Source: a bacterium (lineage in GTDB: Bacteria > UBP15 > UBA6099). Taken from it: DNA of 64,000 nucleotides. Position numbers and translations under genes: made by a program. The first letter of the stretch is position 1. Each line of letters starts with the position of its first letter. Of the stretch, positions 38,247 to 47,879 are shown one piece after another. The stretch lies in the NCBI GenBank assembly GCA_029564595.1, contig JAKQPS010000001.1, forward strand, positions 62,001-126,000, in the 5' to 3' direction. Below the pieces are notes generated by a model. It saw only the letters and a list, made by a program, of their open reading frames with translations. It did not search any database and was not told where the DNA came from.

Positions 38247-38308
38247 CATAGAAAGCCGCTCCGGGGTATGGACTGACGCGCCCGGAGCATTCCGGAGGTT
38301 TGACGACG

Positions 38309-39106
38309 ATGGGAATAGTTTTTGAAAAAGAAGGCCACATCGCAAAGGTCGGGCTTAACAGCCCGGAAACAAGGAATGCTCTCGGCCCCGACGAACTGCT
38401 GGCTCTGAACAATGTGTGGGAAGAGTGCCAAGCCGACGACAATGTGCGGGTGGTAGTGTTCTATTCCGAACTGCCGGACATTTTCTGCTCCGGCATGAAC
38501 CTCAAGACGGCCATACCGATATGGACGGGCATGAGGAAGCCTGAGACGGAGGGCGAGAAGTGGCTGATGTCCGACAACAAATCCGTCGGCAAGGCGATGC
38601 TAAAGCACAAGACGCTGGACCGCCCCGTGATAGCGGCGGTGAACGGTTATTGCCTCACCGGCGGATTCGAGATGGCGATGGGGTGCGAGCTTCGGGTTGC
38701 GTCGGAAGACGCGGTGTTTCAGATGCGGGAGACCACGCTGGGGATAATGCCGATAGGCGGGTCGAACGTGTTTCTGCCCGCGCAGGTGGGGCAGGCGAGG
38801 GCTATGGAGATATTGTTGACGGGCGGCAACTTCACCGCGGAGCGACTTCTCGAATGGGGATTTCTCAACAGGGTCGTCCCGCGAGAGAAGCTTATGGAAG
38901 AGGCGATGGGGCTGGCCGGAATCATAGCTTCGAACGGCCCGAAGTCGATCCGGGGCATGGTTAGGTGCTCGCGTCAGATACAGGGGAAATCGCTGGCTGA
39001 CGCTCTTGACGTCGAAGTGGCCATCGGCGCTCCGATATTCATGAGCGACGACGCCCGCGAGGGCGTCACCGCGCAGAAAGAGAAACGGAAACCTAATTTC
39101 AAATGA
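38309..39106 (+). CDS. Enoyl-CoA hydratase/isomerase (crotonase) family enzyme
   Basis: A 265-residue protein. The oxyanion hole region SGMNLKTA and the NGYCLTGGFEMAMGCELRVA segment are typical of crotonases. Glu in GGFE and Glu in MRETTLGIMP fall at the two catalytic positions of enoyl-CoA hydratase, so hydratase activity is plausible. The start is ATG 38309, ten bases after GGAGG. A hotdog thioesterase gene follows 49 bases later, suggesting a shared acyl-CoA route. The exact substrate cannot be read from sequence. Confidence 0.9.
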   Translation: MGIVFEKEGHIAKVGLNSPETRNALGPDELLALNNVWEECQADDNVRVVVFYSELPDIFCSGMNLKTAIPIWTGMRKPETEGEKWLMSDNKSVGKAMLKHKTLDRPVIAAVNGYCLTGGFEMAMGCELRVASEDAVFQMRETTLGIMPIGGSNVFLPAQVGQARAMEILLTGGNFTAERLLEWGFLNRVVPREKLMEEAMGLAGIIASNGPKSIRGMVRCSRQIQGKSLADALDVEVAIGAPIFMSDDAREGVTAQKEKRKPNFK

Positions 39107-39155
39107 CGCCTAAACGCGGCCCGGCGGCGGAACGCGGTCTCATGACGGAGGAGAT

Positions 39156-39545
39156 ATGGACAGCGATTATCTCGAAAAACTGGCAAAGAATCCGTTTAAT
39201 AACATGCTTGGGATAAGGATTTTAGATGTGGGAGACGGGCGCGCGAAGGCCAGCCTCGAGATCAAGCCTGAGCACGCCAATATTCACAGCACGGCGCACG
39301 GCTCCGTGCTGTTTGCGGTGTCGGACGCGGCTTTCGAGGCGGCGGTGAACTCTATGAGCCGCCCGGCGGTGGCTGTTCAGGTCGACATTCAATATCTGGC
39401 TCCCGCAAAAATCGGCGATGTGGTGACGGCTGCGGGAGAGCCTGTGCGGGTGGGCAAGAAAATGGCTTCATACAGACTCGACGCGACAAATCAGGAAGGC
39501 AAAAAGATTTCTGCGGCTCAGGCGACGGCGTTCTTCGTCGACTGA
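39156..39545 (+). CDS. PaaI-type hotdog thioesterase
   Basis: A 129-residue single hotdog domain. NIHSTAHGSVLFAVSDAAFE matches the PaaI active-site pattern (HGG...D), with Ser in place of the second Gly. Such enzymes hydrolyse acyl-CoA thioesters as tetramers. GGAGGAG lies directly before the ATG. The crotonase upstream suggests it releases a product, or clears dead-end CoA esters, of the same pathway. Confidence 0.9.
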   Translation: MDSDYLEKLAKNPFNNMLGIRILDVGDGRAKASLEIKPEHANIHSTAHGSVLFAVSDAAFEAAVNSMSRPAVAVQVDIQYLAPAKIGDVVTAAGEPVRVGKKMASYRLDATNQEGKKISAAQATAFFVD

Positions 39546-39572
39546 TGTCTGAGCCAAGCTCGGTTTATATAA

Positions 39573-40766
39573 ATGGATTGCGCAATGAAAAGAATGGTTT
39601 CGGCCCAAAAATCGGCGGTGTTTTTTGCGGTTGCGGCGCTGTGCCTGCTCGTTTTCGCGCCTTCATCCGGCGCGTCGGAAAAACCTAGGAAGTGTTATTT
39701 TCTAGAGGACTGCGAGGCGGCGGCGGAAGCGGCGCTTGAGACGGGAGACGACGCGGCGAGGATAGAGTATCTATCTCAGGCCGCGGAGTTCGCGAAAGGG
39801 GAGCGCGCGGCGGAGCTTCGCGCGAAACTTGCCGAAGCGCATCTCTTCAGAGGGCTGGCCGGCGGCGCGGACGCGATGCAAAGCTACTCCAAAGCCGTCG
39901 AGCTTAACCCTGATATGGCTCTGGCTTGGCGCAGCAGGGGCTGGCTTCTGTTGCGCTCCGGCAGTCTTGACGCCGCGATCGAGGATTTCAACCGGGCGGT
40001 GGAACTGGAGCCGGACGACGCCGAGGCGCGCGGCGCGAGGGGGCTAGCGCTGCTGAAAAAAGGACGTCTGGCATCCGCCGCCACCGACTTCGACCGAGCG
40101 GCGAAAATCGATCCCGGCGCGGCCGCTTTCTACAACCGGGGACTGGCGCGCTCGGATATGGCGGACTACGCCGCGGCCGTCGTTGATTTCGATAGGGCCG
40201 TCGCTATCGGAGGGCCGAATCCTCACTTTCTGCTCGAACGCGCGGTGGCGCAGCTCAACAGGGGGTTCGCCAATCGGGCGATGGAGGATTTGAGAGTCGC
40301 GCTCGCCGCGGACCCCGTGAACCTTCAGGCCGGATACTACTTCGTCGCGGCTCTTGTATACGCCGGCGAGAGGGCCGCAGCGGAGGACGCCATGAGGCGT
40401 TTCTTCGGAAAGGGGTTTGCCATAGACGCGCCGGAATACGATTATTTCAGGCTGGAACTGTCCGGTCTGCGAATCATATTGAACGAGGTAAAGCTGATGG
40501 GCGGGTTGCCGGAGCCGAAGAATCTGGCGGCTTCGGCGGCGGCGGCGAATGAAAAAGGGCGCGTCGATACGGCGGCGGCTTACTACTCCGCCTACCTCTT
40601 CATTTCTCCTGAGAACGCGGCGGCGGCGTACAACCTTGCGGCATGTCTCGAGATGACAGGCGAGCGGCGCAAAGCAATACAATATTATTATAGATATCTT
40701 TATCTTGCCCCCGGCGCGGCGGACCGCGCGGAGGTTCTGGACGCGATCCTAAAGCTGTCCGAATAG
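39573..40766 (+). CDS. Secreted TPR-repeat protein
   Basis: A 397-residue protein (393 if the ATG at 39585 is used). Signal peptide ends near SSGAS. It carries at least five tetratricopeptide repeats (for example AVELNPDMALAWRSRGWLLL, FNRAVELEPDDAEARGARGL), one pair near the C-terminus. Two Cys (KCYFLEDCE) lie right after the signal peptide. It probably scaffolds proteins in the periplasm. The GH2-like membrane protein starts 50 bases downstream, so they may work together. Neither candidate start has a clear ribosome site. Confidence 0.82.
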   Translation: MDCAMKRMVSAQKSAVFFAVAALCLLVFAPSSGASEKPRKCYFLEDCEAAAEAALETGDDAARIEYLSQAAEFAKGERAAELRAKLAEAHLFRGLAGGADAMQSYSKAVELNPDMALAWRSRGWLLLRSGSLDAAIEDFNRAVELEPDDAEARGARGLALLKKGRLASAATDFDRAAKIDPGAAAFYNRGLARSDMADYAAAVVDFDRAVAIGGPNPHFLLERAVAQLNRGFANRAMEDLRVALAADPVNLQAGYYFVAALVYAGERAAAEDAMRRFFGKGFAIDAPEYDYFRLELSGLRIILNEVKLMGGLPEPKNLAASAAAANEKGRVDTAAAYYSAYLFISPENAAAAYNLAACLEMTGERRKAIQYYYRYLYLAPGAADRAEVLDAILKLSE

Positions 40767-40816
40767 GTTGGAGCGCGGAGCGCGTTCCGCCGGATTGTGC
40801 TATACTTTTTCAGCTT

Positions 40817-43270
40817 ATGAGAGCAAGGAACCAATACATCGCGGGAGTGGCGTTGTTGGCGCTCATTGCGGCGGGGGCCGCGCTTAGCGCGCTCGGCCGC
40901 GCCCCGGTCCCGAGATTCTCCGAACAGAAAATCCTTTTCGACCCTATCGAGAACCCTTCGAATCCGTTCAGGAAAACCCTCTGGCTCAACGGCAACTGGG
41001 AATTCAGGACAGGCGCAGGCGGGGAGTGGAACACAGTGGCGGTCCCGCATGTCTGGAATAGCATTCCCGGTCTGGAGAACTACGCTGGCGCGGCTGAATA
41101 CAGGATAGAGTTTATTATAGACGAGGATTGGGCGGGCGAATCGCCCATTCTCCGCTTCGAGGGAGTGGCTGGAGCGGCCGAGGTTTTAATAAACGACATC
41201 AGAGTCGCCAAAAGGAATTCCAGACCGACGCCGTTCGAGGTTGACATCTCAAAGCATGCGGTGTCGCCGGGCGGAAACGAACTTAGGGTGATAGTGGACA
41301 ACAGTCCCGCGCAGGCGTTGGCTCCTGCGGGAGAAAAAAACTTCGGCGGGATTTTTAGAGAGGTTTTTATCGAGTTCAGGCGGCCGTTAAGGTTCGAGGA
41401 AGTGAGCGCGGCGGCGAAAGCCGCCGCAGGCGAGGACTGGGCGACCGCGTCCGCGCGTGTGATTGCTCGCGTGGCGTCTCCCGACGGCGAGGCTCAGGTT
41501 TTCGGCAGGATAAACCCGGAGGAAGGATGGGGCGGCTCCATATTCGATTCTTTGCTGTCTTCCGACTCCTCCGGTTACGCCTATCTCGATTGGCGGGGAG
41601 AGCTGCCGCAGGCCATCCGGTGGAGTCCTGAAAATCCCCAGATTTATAAAGCCGGACTGGTGGCTGTCACTCCGGAAGGAATGACGGACGGGGCGCAGAA
41701 ATATTTCGGTGTCAGGGAGTTCAAGCGCGACAGGAAAGGCTTTTTTCTGAACGGCGAGAGGATAAAGCTAGACGGGGTGGTATGGAGGACGCATTTTGGC
41801 GGCGGTTGGGGGCCGGTAGCGACCCGCGAGACTGCGGAGAGAGATATCGAGTTCATACGCGCGGCGGGCTTCAACGCAGTCAGGTTCGTCGCGCCTCCTC
41901 ACTCGGAACTGCTAAGCATGTGCGATAGAGCGGGGCTGCTCGTTTTTGAGGAGCTTCCTTTCAGCGGAAAGCTGCGCGGCGGAGATTCAGCATACGCGGA
42001 GCTTGAGGCCGCGCTTGACGAGATGGTCGCCCGCGACGAGAGCCATCCTTCAGTTGTCGCGTGGGGATTGGGCAGCGGCATAGAGGTCGGCGACCCGGTC
42101 ACCGCAGCCGCAGTCGAACGTCTTGCCGCGAGGCTGAAGAAGGCTGATCCCGGCAAATTAGTTTACGCAGGGACGCGTGGCGTTTCCTTGTGGAAGGCTC
42201 CGAAAGACATAGACTTTTTCGCTTTCGAGGAATACGCGGGTTGGACAGGCCGCTCGACGGCGTCGCTGAAGCGCGCGCTGTCGTCCAAGAAAATATCGGC
42301 ATCCGAAAGGCCGCTCGTCCTCTTGGCATACGGCGCGGGCGCGGACGCGCGCGCGGGAGCAGCCGGACTGAAAGGCTCCCAGCTTCATCAGTATTTTGCT
42401 ATCGCTGCGACGCGCGACGCCATGTCTGCGGCCTCGAACGTCGGAGGCGGTTTCATCGATTCTCTGGCTGATTACGAAGGGCCTGCCCTCGGCGGCCCGC
42501 GCGTTGAAAGGCATATCGTGGACACCGGTCTGCTCGACGAGGACCGCAAGCCTAAGATTGTCTATCAGCAACTATCCGGCGCGGGGCGGCCAGAGGATGT
42601 CGCTTGGCGGTGGTCGAGACTCCGATTCAGGCTGCCCGGCGCGGAACTCGCTCTGCTGGCCGTCGCTGCGCTTGCGGGGTTTTCCATCTGGAGCGGCTTC
42701 GGCAGAGTGTGGCAAGCGCTCATTGAGCCGGAGGAACTGCGTCCGTTCGATGGGGACTCGCGGGATGACGCGAAGAGTTTTCTGCTGTTCGGGCTTCCGA
42801 TGCTCATAGCGGGAGCCGCGGCGATGTCGTTCGCCGCGTCCGCCGCTCTCGACCTGCGCCCGCTGAATCCGGCGACAACTTCTCCGGCTGTCATCTCGGC
42901 GGCTAAGCTGTGGATAGAGCATTTCCCGGTCAGGCTCGCTGTCATGTTCGTCGCGCAAATTTTCTTCGCGGCAGCCGCCGGCATGACATCCTCGGCGATT
43001 CTAGGCGTGGAGCCATTAAAAATCTTTGAGCTTTCGGCGCGTTGTTCAGCATTGAGGATGCTTTTCGTTTTTGCGCCTTTCATCCCTATCCCGCTCTGGG
43101 GCTTCGCGGTTTTGATCGCTGGATGGGAAGTCTTCGTTCTGACGGGCGCGGTGTCGCGAACATTGTGGGAACCCGTCGACAGAGCCGCCGTCGCGGTAGC
43201 CGCCGGGTTTGCCGCCGCCGCAGCAATAATCGTCTCGATAGCCGTTTTTATATTAAATGTGATTCTCTGA
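40817..43270 (+). CDS. GH2-fold protein lacking catalytic Glu, fused to a multi-helix membrane domain
   Basis: An 817-residue protein. N-terminal membrane helix (about 8-27), then the GH2 jelly-roll (LNGNWEFRTG, VPHVWNSIPG), Ig-like domain and TIM barrel. At the acid/base site, where GH2 enzymes read W-S-x-x-N-E, it has WGLGSG (416-421), so Asn-Glu became Ser420-Gly421. At the nucleophile site, where they read SEYG or TEYG, it has LLAYG with Ala504. Both catalytic Glu are therefore missing. Residues about 610-817 hold around five membrane helices, like Yip1-type domains. It may bind rather than cleave sugars at the membrane. No ribosome site is seen; TATACT sits 11 bases before the ATG. Confidence 0.85.
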   Translation: MRARNQYIAGVALLALIAAGAALSALGRAPVPRFSEQKILFDPIENPSNPFRKTLWLNGNWEFRTGAGGEWNTVAVPHVWNSIPGLENYAGAAEYRIEFIIDEDWAGESPILRFEGVAGAAEVLINDIRVAKRNSRPTPFEVDISKHAVSPGGNELRVIVDNSPAQALAPAGEKNFGGIFREVFIEFRRPLRFEEVSAAAKAAAGEDWATASARVIARVASPDGEAQVFGRINPEEGWGGSIFDSLLSSDSSGYAYLDWRGELPQAIRWSPENPQIYKAGLVAVTPEGMTDGAQKYFGVREFKRDRKGFFLNGERIKLDGVVWRTHFGGGWGPVATRETAERDIEFIRAAGFNAVRFVAPPHSELLSMCDRAGLLVFEELPFSGKLRGGDSAYAELEAALDEMVARDESHPSVVAWGLGSGIEVGDPVTAAAVERLAARLKKADPGKLVYAGTRGVSLWKAPKDIDFFAFEEYAGWTGRSTASLKRALSSKKISASERPLVLLAYGAGADARAGAAGLKGSQLHQYFAIAATRDAMSAASNVGGGFIDSLADYEGPALGGPRVERHIVDTGLLDEDRKPKIVYQQLSGAGRPEDVAWRWSRLRFRLPGAELALLAVAALAGFSIWSGFGRVWQALIEPEELRPFDGDSRDDAKSFLLFGLPMLIAGAAAMSFAASAALDLRPLNPATTSPAVISAAKLWIEHFPVRLAVMFVAQIFFAAAAGMTSSAILGVEPLKIFELSARCSALRMLFVFAPFIPIPLWGFAVLIAGWEVFVLTGAVSRTLWEPVDRAAVAVAAGFAAAAAIIVSIAVFILNVIL

Positions 43271-43347
43271 GAGCGTCTTCATTTGGAGGATGCCGGGGAA
43301 TCCGAGAAAAAATACTGAATCGCGATTTTTCGGGAGGAACAACCCTT

Positions 43348-43689
43348 ATGAAAACAGTCGATAAGCCTTGGGGAAGAGAAGTTTGGATAGCTTATGACAA
43401 CGGGAAATACGCGGCGAAATTTCTTGAGATAAACGCCGGTCACAGGCTCAGCTATCAGTACCACAAGGTCAAGCATGAAACGCTCTATCTGATGGAAGGC
43501 AAAGTAAAATTCACGCTCGAAAATGCATCTGGCGAAATCGAGGAGCACGTCATAGAGCCGGGAGAATACAGGGTGGTTGAGCCGGGAAGAAAACACAGAA
43601 TGGAAGCCGTTGAGGACAGCCGGTTCTTCGAAGTTTCCACCCCCGAACTTGACGACGTAGTTCGCGTAGAAGACGACTACAAGCGTTGA
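43348..43689 (+). CDS. Cupin, mannose-6-phosphate isomerase type
   Basis: A 113-residue single cupin domain. KPWGREVWIAYDNGKYAAKF and the metal-binding HRLSYQYHKVKHETLYLMEG pattern match the C-terminal domain of type II phosphomannose isomerase/GDP-mannose pyrophosphorylase. Such short forms may isomerise or bind sugar phosphates. Ribosome site GGGAGG lies ten bases before the ATG at 43348. It follows the GH2-like gene by 77 bases on the same strand. Confidence 0.88.
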   Translation: MKTVDKPWGREVWIAYDNGKYAAKFLEINAGHRLSYQYHKVKHETLYLMEGKVKFTLENASGEIEEHVIEPGEYRVVEPGRKHRMEAVEDSRFFEVSTPELDDVVRVEDDYKR

Positions 43690-43940
43690 GCGGGTTTAAT
43701 TTACGATCTGCGCGCTCAAGGCCGAATTATTTGCACATGGAAAACAATGTTGTCCAATTATCAAGCAATCACAAACTATGTTTTATTGCTGTGTTTTAGT
43801 TCAAACAGGGCGGAATAATAGATTTATTTGATGGAACAGAATTGATGAAAATAGATCGATGTGTTAAACTCAATTAGACTATTTTGAATGATAAACACAA
43901 AACATTAAGCAGGATTCAGAAGGCGGAGGGCGGCAAGATC

Positions 43941-44780
43941 ATGTTTAGATTGAGATTGAACCTTCATCTTGTTTTTTGCTTAGCGGTTTTAATGCTGGCA
44001 TTAAGCGCGTCGACTTCATTTTCTGCGCAGATTGATAACGAAAAAGTTGCGTTTATTGACGATGAAAACGCCGCGCTCGCTAATGATTTGCTGATCGTAA
44101 AGACATTTACGTCTAAATCGAGCAACAAATATGCTTTGGATACGAATATTCGGCAGGTAAGGAAGATACTTACGGAATATGTTTCGCGAGGCTTTCTTGC
44201 GGACAGTCGATTAAGAACAGTGGTGGCGCTTGGAACAGACGAGGAGGACAGCGCTATTGAGAACGCATTATTCAACAAAGTCGGCAATTACAAAAATGCT
44301 GAAAAACTAATCAACTTCGATGAAGCGCGCGCATTAGCGAAAAGACACAACGCTAGAATTATTCTCATGACGGATATTCGGGAAATGAAGGAAAGGACAG
44401 TCGTTAGAGAGGGCGGAAAAACAACTCTTTACAAGGGAAAGACAACATTTATCGCAACTGTTGACATAACCGCAATACTTTATGATGTTCAAGAAGATAA
44501 AACGTTATGGTTTAAATATTACGCAAATGAATCAGAAATCGGCAGTAAGAAATGGAGCGGTCTTGTAAACAGGTTTTTGCAAGACCACTGCATAATCGTT
44601 AACAAAGAGATTGGACCATCCGTAGGCAATCAGGAGTTTCACAAGGAAACCGATTTGTTTTTGAATAGTCCGGTCGGCATTCCTTTTAAGATTGTTTCGG
44701 ATCAGATGCTAAAAGATGTGTCGCCGATGATATACGACCAACTCGGTATTTCTCCACCCGAACAACCCGTAGTCGAATAA
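43941..44780 (+). CDS. Secreted protein, CsgG/LpoB-like fold possible
   Basis: A 279-residue protein with signal peptide (about 1-29, ending SFSAQ). It and its 250-base upstream region are AT-rich relative to the neighbours. Segments such as RHNARIILMTDIRE, FIATVDITAILYDVQEDKTL and WFKYYANESEIG resemble the central sheet of CsgG or LpoB-type periplasmic proteins; this is a weak resemblance. There is no lipobox. ATG at 43941 follows GGAGGGCGG. A possible promoter (TTGATG 43842, TAAACT 43865, spacing 17) lies upstream. Function unknown. Confidence 0.65.
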   Translation: MFRLRLNLHLVFCLAVLMLALSASTSFSAQIDNEKVAFIDDENAALANDLLIVKTFTSKSSNKYALDTNIRQVRKILTEYVSRGFLADSRLRTVVALGTDEEDSAIENALFNKVGNYKNAEKLINFDEARALAKRHNARIILMTDIREMKERTVVREGGKTTLYKGKTTFIATVDITAILYDVQEDKTLWFKYYANESEIGSKKWSGLVNRFLQDHCIIVNKEIGPSVGNQEFHKETDLFLNSPVGIPFKIVSDQMLKDVSPMIYDQLGISPPEQPVVE

Positions 44781-46144: not shown

Positions 46145-46337
46145 TCCGCCAATTATAGCGGCGCGCGGCGGATAACGCCACTTCGCGACCCGCGCGGCGC
46201 TCGATTGTGGACTCCCGCATGTCTCTATGATATGATGATTCTCTGAACAGCGCGGCGCGGGATGGAATAAAACCAGCCTTGGAAACGACTCATAATCGTA
46301 TGCAGATTGATAAACACACAGGGAGATGACGGAACAA

Positions 46338-47879
46338 ATGAAAACAAGAGCGGCTTTGGCGGTGGCGATAGCCGCCGCCGCGATATTCGCGGCGGGGTGC
46401 GGCAATGGGTCCATGAATCCTTATATCCTTCATTACGGGGATGTCGAAGGTTATATTTACGCGGACAGTTACAACAGCGGAATTGCCGCCAGACCGGCGC
46501 TCCGAGCTGCGGGACGGGCTGTCCCGGACGGACAAGTCCCCGTCGCCGGCGCTCAAGTGTCCCTGACCGCAAAGGGTTTCATTCCCGCTCAGCCTCCTCT
46601 TCCCGTTCAAACGGACGGAGACGGCAAATTCGCATTCTCTGACGTCGAGACAGGCGCATATACGCTAAAGGCAGTTAAAGACGGCATGGCGGACATCGAA
46701 TTCGATGTGACGGTCGTCGCCGACGCTATCAATGTGGTGAATGACGCTGCGGGAGACGACCAGATGTCCATGACTCCGACGGACAAAGGCACGCTGACCG
46801 TCACCGCCGTCGCCGATTGCCAAGTCTCCATCCCGGTGGAGGGAGACATTTATGTCGGAGGGTTGCTAACCACTTACAAGACTCCGGTTGCGGTGATAAA
46901 CGACATCGCGCCCGGACTTCGAGAGATTCTTGTGAGGGCGGACGGCTATCAGGTTCCAGCGGCTAAAAATGTGACCATAACTTCCGGCGGGCAGCAGAGC
47001 GTGGACTTCACCCTTGTGCCTTCGGGCGGCAACATGAAGCCTTTGGCGACAATCAGTTCGCCCGCCGACGGAGCCGAGGTTTATCTAGGCAATATTGTGA
47101 CTTTAACCGGCGTCGGCGCTGATTGCGAGGAAGGCAACCTTGCCGGAGCTTCCCTCGAATGGACGTCCGACTTGGACGGCCCTATCGGAACCGGAAATCT
47201 GGTCACAAGCAACACTCTGTCGGAAGGAACTCATGTTATAACGCTTGAAGTATCAGACGAGGAAGGTTTAACCGACACGGACACGATAACGCTTGTGGTG
47301 AACCCCGCCCAGAGTTCTGCGCCCGTCGCGACAATCGTCTCTCCTGTGAACGGATATGCTTTCGCTACCGGAGCCGTTGTCACCTTTATCGGCACGGGAC
47401 TTGACGCTCAGGACGGCGTCTTGACAGGCGCTTCCCTGCGTTGGCATTCCAGCGAGGACGGCGATCTCGGCACAGGAGCATATCTGACAAAAACAAACTT
47501 ATCCGAGAACGAGCACGTAATCACCCTGACGGTCACCGATACGGATGATGAGGTCGGCACGGCGACGGTCACTATATCAGTCGGCGAAACGGGAGCGGAA
47601 AACCAGCCGCCCGTGGTCGCCATTGCGTCGCCTGTTAGCGGTTCCAGCGTCGCAAGCGGCACGTTGTTATTTTTTGCTGGCGGAGCAGTTGACCCGGAGG
47701 ACGGAGCGATAACGGGAGCCGGCCTTGTCTGGACTTCAGACCTCGACGGCCCTATCGGAACTGGGGCTTATTTCACAAAGAACAATCTGAACGCCGGTCT
47801 TCATACCATAACTCTTTCTGTCGAAGACAGCCAAGGCGAGGAAGGCTCGGATTCGGTCACTATCGATATAACGGAATAA
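46338..47879 (+). CDS. Lipoprotein with PEGA and three tandem Ig-like domains
   Basis: About 513 residues. Lipobox FAAGC with Cys21. Then a CarboxypepD-like domain (GKFAFSDVETGAYTLKAVKD), a PEGA-like domain (about 160-225, YVGGLLTTYKTPVAVIND), and three copies of an about 95-residue Ig/PKD-like domain (each with a WxSDxDGxxGTG core and a HxITLxVxD strand). Copies 1 and 3 share TSDLDGPIGTG exactly, which suggests recent duplication. This is a surface or periplasmic binding lipoprotein. ATG 46326 is the alternative start. Confidence 0.85.
   Translation: MKTRAALAVAIAAAAIFAAGCGNGSMNPYILHYGDVEGYIYADSYNSGIAARPALRAAGRAVPDGQVPVAGAQVSLTAKGFIPAQPPLPVQTDGDGKFAFSDVETGAYTLKAVKDGMADIEFDVTVVADAINVVNDAAGDDQMSMTPTDKGTLTVTAVADCQVSIPVEGDIYVGGLLTTYKTPVAVINDIAPGLREILVRADGYQVPAAKNVTITSGGQQSVDFTLVPSGGNMKPLATISSPADGAEVYLGNIVTLTGVGADCEEGNLAGASLEWTSDLDGPIGTGNLVTSNTLSEGTHVITLEVSDEEGLTDTDTITLVVNPAQSSAPVATIVSPVNGYAFATGAVVTFIGTGLDAQDGVLTGASLRWHSSEDGDLGTGAYLTKTNLSENEHVITLTVTDTDDEVGTATVTISVGETGAENQPPVVAIASPVSGSSVASGTLLFFAGGAVDPEDGAITGAGLVWTSDLDGPIGTGAYFTKNNLNAGLHTITLSVEDSQGEEGSDSVTIDITE

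Follow-up and report, generated by a model that had tools for sequence, protein, structure and literature searches.

What does a glycoside hydrolase fold do in the cell once its catalytic residues have been replaced and the protein has been extended by a set of membrane helices? The question is raised by a gene at positions 40817–43270 of the window, i.e., the whole stretch of 64,000 nucleotides analysed here, from a bacterium of the UBP15 lineage. The initial annotation of this stretch described the product as a family 2 glycoside hydrolase (GH2) fold lacking both catalytic glutamates and fused to membrane helices, and proposed that it could be a sugar sensor or a scaffold. In this study, we have followed up that description by domain and structure alignment, a survey of related proteins, a phylogeny of the GH2 core and a comparison of gene neighbourhoods.

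A GH2 fold joined to a membrane domain

The open reading frame is intact and encodes a product of 817 aa, in which an N-terminal hydrophobic segment is followed by a jelly-roll, an Ig domain, a TIM barrel and a C-terminal membrane domain:

40817–43270, forward strand: membrane-tailed GH2-fold protein, putative pseudoenzyme, 817 aa (ORF list, Pfam, PDB alignment)
40838–40894, forward strand: N-terminal hydrophobic segment, aa 8–26, signal peptide or signal anchor (hydropathy)
40967–41386, forward strand: GH2 N-terminal jelly-roll, about aa 51–190 (PF02837 at aa 55–184; PDB alignment)
41387–41716, forward strand: Ig-like GH2 middle domain, about aa 191–300 (PDB alignment; PF00703 found in homologues)
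41717–42586, forward strand: TIM-barrel domain with dismantled active site, about aa 301–590 (PF02836 at aa 307–516; PDB alignment; column comparison)
42587–43267, forward strand: C-terminal membrane domain, aa 591–817, 5–6 predicted helices (hydropathy; dN/dS; no Pfam match)

The GH2 sugar-binding domain (PF02837, E = 4e-12, 46.7 bits against a cut-off of 28) and the GH2 TIM barrel (PF02836, E = 6e-14, 52.3 bits against a cut-off of 21) both score above their curated cut-offs, and the Ig domain of this copy, which has no Pfam hit of its own, is recognized by PDB alignment only. A phmmer comparison with GH2 crystal structures aligned aa 48–592, with 5uj6 as the best match (E = 5e-34), and the family profile retrieved the β-galacturonidase 6ncw (E = 3e-80) and the Escherichia coli β-glucuronidase 3k46 (E = 2.5e-66). 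Domain scores and structure alignment together place the protein in the GH2 fold superfamily. Among the named functional families, the NCBIfam equivalogs GusA, LacZ4 and GalA gave at best 142 bits against a curated cut-off of 950, so the protein is assigned to none of these. Hydropathy reveals five or six hydrophobic segments within aa 606–817 and, as the same arrangement recurs in the survey described below, the reported fusion of GH2 landmarks to C-terminal membrane helices is borne out. An AlphaFold model computed on an alignment of four sequences (the window protein and three homologues of 94–95% identity) had a pLDDT of 34 and a pTM of 0.26, values too low for the model to be used.

Loss of the active site

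In the phmmer alignment with PDB sequences, the motif WGLGSGI of the window protein lies on WGYMNEI and LLAYGAGAD lies on IVSEYGAGSD, which assigns the acid/base pair to Ser420-Gly421 and the nucleophile to Ala504, exactly as first claimed. The replacements extend to other residues of the pocket, as follows:

42074–42079, forward strand: Ser420-Gly421 in place of the acid/base pair Asn-Glu (PDB alignment; survey; column comparison)
42326–42328, forward strand: Ala504 in place of the nucleophile Glu (PDB alignment; survey; column comparison)
41786–41788, forward strand: Arg324 in place of the conserved His of the RHE motif (His in 88% of Glu-keeping GH2 proteins in the set)
41888–41890, forward strand: Val358 in place of the invariant His of the RxxHYP motif (His in 100% of Glu-keeping GH2 proteins in the set)
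42458–42460, forward strand: Asp548 in place of the conserved Trp of the last barrel strands (Trp in 92% of Glu-keeping GH2 proteins in the set)
42518–42526, forward strand: Val568-x-Thr570 in place of Asn-x-Lys (Asn and Lys each in 80% of Glu-keeping GH2 proteins in the set)

In the Glu-keeping GH2 proteins of the survey, 95 columns reach a conservation of 75% or more; among these, the residues changed in the window protein are H324, H358, Y359, N420, E421, N471, E504, W548, N568 and K570. The GH2 core residues W61, P77, G178, R181, W269, P274, N312, N353, G373, D466, D552 and G571 are retained, as are R356, Y473 and W476 of the pocket, which are kept in the window copy and in the group to which it belongs (group A below). 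The protein thus shares with the β-glucuronidases and β-galacturonidases of known structure (6ncw, 5uj6 and E. coli GusA, 3k46) their domain order, their core residues and an alignment of about 550 residues, but differs from them in lacking the Asn-Glu pair, the nucleophile and most of the pocket, and in carrying a multi-helix membrane tail. The residues that characterize an active GH2 enzyme (acid/base Asn-Glu, nucleophile Glu and the subsite His, His, Trp and Asn-x-Lys) are absent from it, and it is expected to be devoid of hydrolase activity. Misalignment is very unlikely to be the cause of the missing residues, because both catalytic motifs are framed by conserved flanks.

The same barrel might instead have been re-purposed, either through an active site formed anew or through an unusual mechanism. 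Such a change would agree with the finding that the residues now present at the lost positions are conserved inside sub-clades of homologues (for example GLGSG at the acid/base strand, Asp548, and Asp at position 504 in four homologues), yet these residues differ from one sub-clade to another. Glu occupies column 504 in none of the 35 dead proteins checked, and these contain no conserved acidic pair of their own within aa 300–590: their conserved Asp and Glu columns are either found also in the enzymes or, in the case of E397 and E434, conserved only in the window lineage. The dead-protein alignment offers no other conserved Glu pair that could have taken over the active site, in keeping with the initial annotation, and we regard a re-purposed enzyme as improbable.

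Selection on the gene and its paralogue

Orthologues with 94–95% identity were found in three other genomes of the same genus (the named records are a UBP15 candidate-phylum bacterium (UBA6099), ADurb.Bin236 and one unclassified bacterium), and the frame is intact in each of the four genomes. Among these copies dN/dS is 0.08–0.10 overall, which argues against gene decay, and 0.03–0.06 in the membrane part, making this domain the most constrained part of the protein. Having lost its catalytic residues and being kept by selection, the window protein is, as far as its sequence can tell, a pseudoenzyme; the PDB alignment, the survey, the pocket columns and the tree all agree with the earlier view that this is a true loss and no artefact of alignment.

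The genome holds nine GH2 matches. One of them is a paralogue of 829 aa (L032, contig C78, 8285–10771) that has the same architecture; neither of the two Glu is present in it or in its counterparts from related genomes. Another (L001, contig C99, from about 81331) is a tail-less GH2 protein of 1099 aa with Asp-Asp for the acid/base Asn-Glu and with the nucleophile Glu kept.

Membrane-tailed GH2 proteins in other lineages

Profile searches were run against several hundred bacterial genomes, with most families represented by a single genome, and returned 80 distinct GH2 proteins, 45 of which carry a multi-helix C-terminal tail. The nucleophile Glu504 is missing in 42 of these 45 proteins, including three that keep the acid/base Glu421 alone (L123, L129 and L130) and four with Asp at position 504 (L013, L067, L077 and L122); it is kept in the tail-less GH2 proteins of the same survey. 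Both Asn-Glu and Glu are preserved in only three tailed proteins (L016, L059 and L060), all of one small phylum. Besides the window lineage, dead tailed proteins occur in the lineages f4, f10, f54, f56, f58, f84, f173, f178 and f241; 8 of the 9 genomes from one phylum and 12 of the 13 from family f84 encode such a protein, normally in a single copy. Membrane-tailed GH2 is a recurrent architecture, conserved across many little-known lineages, and no singleton. The dead tailed proteins of these other lineages share with the window protein the domain order, the dead pocket and the usual single copy, but differ from it in their weakly Yip1-like tails, in N-termini with the look of a signal peptide or lipobox, and in a GH2 part that the charge rule places outside the cytoplasm.

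The initial annotation had named, as an outcome that would speak against it, homologues with both Glu present and this copy as a lone case of mutation. Such homologues do exist, but as they are confined to one other small phylum, the loss in the window copy is a fixed one rather than an isolated mutation. A decaying gene, a mutation or an assembly error was also considered as the origin of the missing residues. It is refuted by the low dN/dS of a frame intact in four genomes and by the finding that 42 tailed proteins share this loss.

A tree of the GH2 core was built without the pocket columns and without the tail, with 16 tail-less proteins for contrast, a sample limited to hits of the searches described above. 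In this tree, the tailed proteins group together in a single clade, apart from the tail-less ones (support 100/99), divided into three sub-clades: the Glu-keeping proteins (100/99), the window lineage (99/96) and a large multi-lineage group (100/99). The window lineage consists of two sister groups, A (with the window protein) and B (99/96). The Glu-keeping L016, L059 and L060 have the domain order of the window protein and fall in the same GH2-core clade, but they retain the Asn-Glu pair, the Glu and the pocket, and their tail is not detectably related to that of the window protein. A single loss of the active site is recovered in 32% of the bootstrap trees, and on these sequences the dead tailed proteins would require one or two losses.

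Membrane tails and topology

The tail of the window protein matches no Pfam family, Yip1 included, and a PDB search with the tails returned nothing credible. In the large sub-clade, 10 of 18 members show a weak similarity to Yip1 proteins (PF04893), the best E-value of 4e-5 falling short of the Pfam cut-off. No similarity between the tails of the three sub-clades was detected by hhalign or cross-HMM comparison, with shuffled and unrelated membrane sequences as controls. Their common descent is suggested by the tree and by their position, with no detectable support from sequence, and, the tails being so dissimilar, one common membrane function may not be assumed.

In the large sub-clade and in the Glu-keeping group, a charged loop past the first tail helix places the GH2 part outside the cytoplasm according to the charge rule. 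The N-termini of the large sub-clade, which are signal-peptide-like and in one case lipobox-like, indicate the same orientation. The charge pattern of group A, to which the window protein belongs, is ambiguous. In members of group B (L032, L036 and L014), the N-terminus contains two hydrophobic segments and the charge pattern is reversed with respect to the large sub-clade and the Glu-keeping group, predicting a cytoplasmic GH2 domain.

The membrane part could be a transporter or channel, or pair with one, the dead GH2 domain being an accessory ectodomain that guides folding or gating. The GH13-like heavy chains of SLC3 offer a comparison. The strong constraint on the membrane part and the weak Yip1 resemblance of the largest sub-clade can be read in this way, but the tail matches no transporter family and no conserved transporter neighbour was seen in the loci compared, and we consider a role tied to transport quite doubtful.

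Gene neighbourhood

One gene on the same strand lies 50 bp upstream of the GH2 gene:

39573–40766, forward strand: TPR-repeat protein with a signal-peptide-like N-terminus, 397 aa (Pfam TPR_1, E = 6e-25; same order in same-genus records)

It is part of a same-strand run formed by an enoyl-CoA hydratase, a thioesterase, the TPR protein, the GH2 gene and a cupin. The pairing of TPR and GH2 genes, to which the initial annotation had drawn attention, is found in three other records of the genus but does not extend beyond it: the nearest orthologue outside the genus (L090, genome G005) has different neighbours, and among the loci compared no gene neighbour is conserved across lineages. In six loci from four other families (L048, L083, L145, L147, L148 and L149), the next gene downstream of the tailed GH2 gene encodes the chromosome-segregation protein SMC, an adjacency that suggests an old shared gene order. 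A GWxTD-domain protein is encoded near the tailed GH2 gene at L048, L145, L084 and L088, in some of them after SMC.

A glycan sensor or membrane lectin, whose dead barrel or jelly-roll would bind a saccharide and signal through the membrane helices, could draw on the jelly-roll and on R356, Y473 and W476 of the pocket, which group A has kept, and on the TPR protein upstream, a glycan-linked TPR scaffold being known from PNAG export, in the TPR domain of PgaA (PMC9384988). The TPR neighbour is, however, limited to the genus, Pfam identifies no kinase, cyclase or response-regulator domain fused to the window protein, and the adjacent run (38300–43689) contains no signalling gene. Furthermore, the residues that hold the sugar at subsite -1 (His, His, Asn, Trp and Asn-x-Lys) have largely gone along with the catalytic pair. 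Because the sugar subsite is so largely dismantled, the proposed sugar sensor has lost ground and appears unlikely, although sugar binding elsewhere in the protein, for instance in the jelly-roll, is possible. A scaffold or accessory ectodomain in the envelope would fit these observations better.

A proposed non-catalytic role in the cell envelope

We propose that the product of the window gene is a GH2-fold protein that is anchored in the membrane, has no catalytic activity and most likely serves as a non-catalytic scaffold, receptor or accessory ectodomain in the envelope (probability about 0.55), the scaffold or accessory role and the site of action being those that we infer for it. Its ancestor would have been a membrane-tailed GH2 protein of the β-glucuronidase/galacturonidase type, whose active site may have been dismantled early, before the duplication that gave rise to the two paralogues of the window lineage. 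The barrel would then have persisted as a stable module for interactions, anchored in the membrane by several helices, with the GH2 fold acting in binding or assembly and working without chemistry in the cell envelope. More tentatively, the tailed GH2 pseudoenzymes may constitute an ancient family, so far without a name, with an important non-catalytic role. Such a family would belong to the conserved equipment of the envelope in about ten lineages that have received little study, usually with one gene per genome, and would go back to a tethered glycosidase whose Glu-keeping form persists in one phylum.

Among kinases, and among animal glycosidase folds such as Klotho, pseudoenzymes are a familiar phenomenon. 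In animals, the membrane pseudo-glycosidases include Klotho (GH1-like) and SLC3/rBAT/4F2hc (GH13-like), which have single-pass anchors. These likewise set a dead glycosidase fold on a membrane anchor and use it for binding or assembly, but they are eukaryotic, belong to other GH families and span the membrane once, so that the parallel is one of analogy only. A search of open-access papers found nothing pertinent on a broadly conserved, membrane-built family of bacterial GH2 pseudoenzymes or on the window lineage. The GH2 fold appears to have been taken over here for a task in the cell envelope that involves no sugar cleavage and, as Glu-keeping and dead branches share one architecture, the step from catalysis to a non-catalytic function is directly testable. 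From a practical point of view, annotation pipelines are likely to label such proteins as β-galactosidase or β-glucuronidase, which would inflate the predicted glycan-degrading capacity of uncultured phyla.

Other features of the window

Scans for promoters and terminators gave signals at chance level, and scans of viral contigs for further GH2 sequences returned two distant loci. The frame of 215 aa listed at 43042–43689 is the cupin, which is likely to start near 43390; the upstream stretch of the listed frame overlaps the GH2 gene in another frame. Positions 43884–44780 encode a protein of 298 aa with one N-terminal hydrophobic segment, which matches no Pfam family and is conserved in two records of the genus. 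Positions 46326–47879 encode a lipoprotein-like product with carboxypeptidase-regulatory, PEGA and PKD domains.
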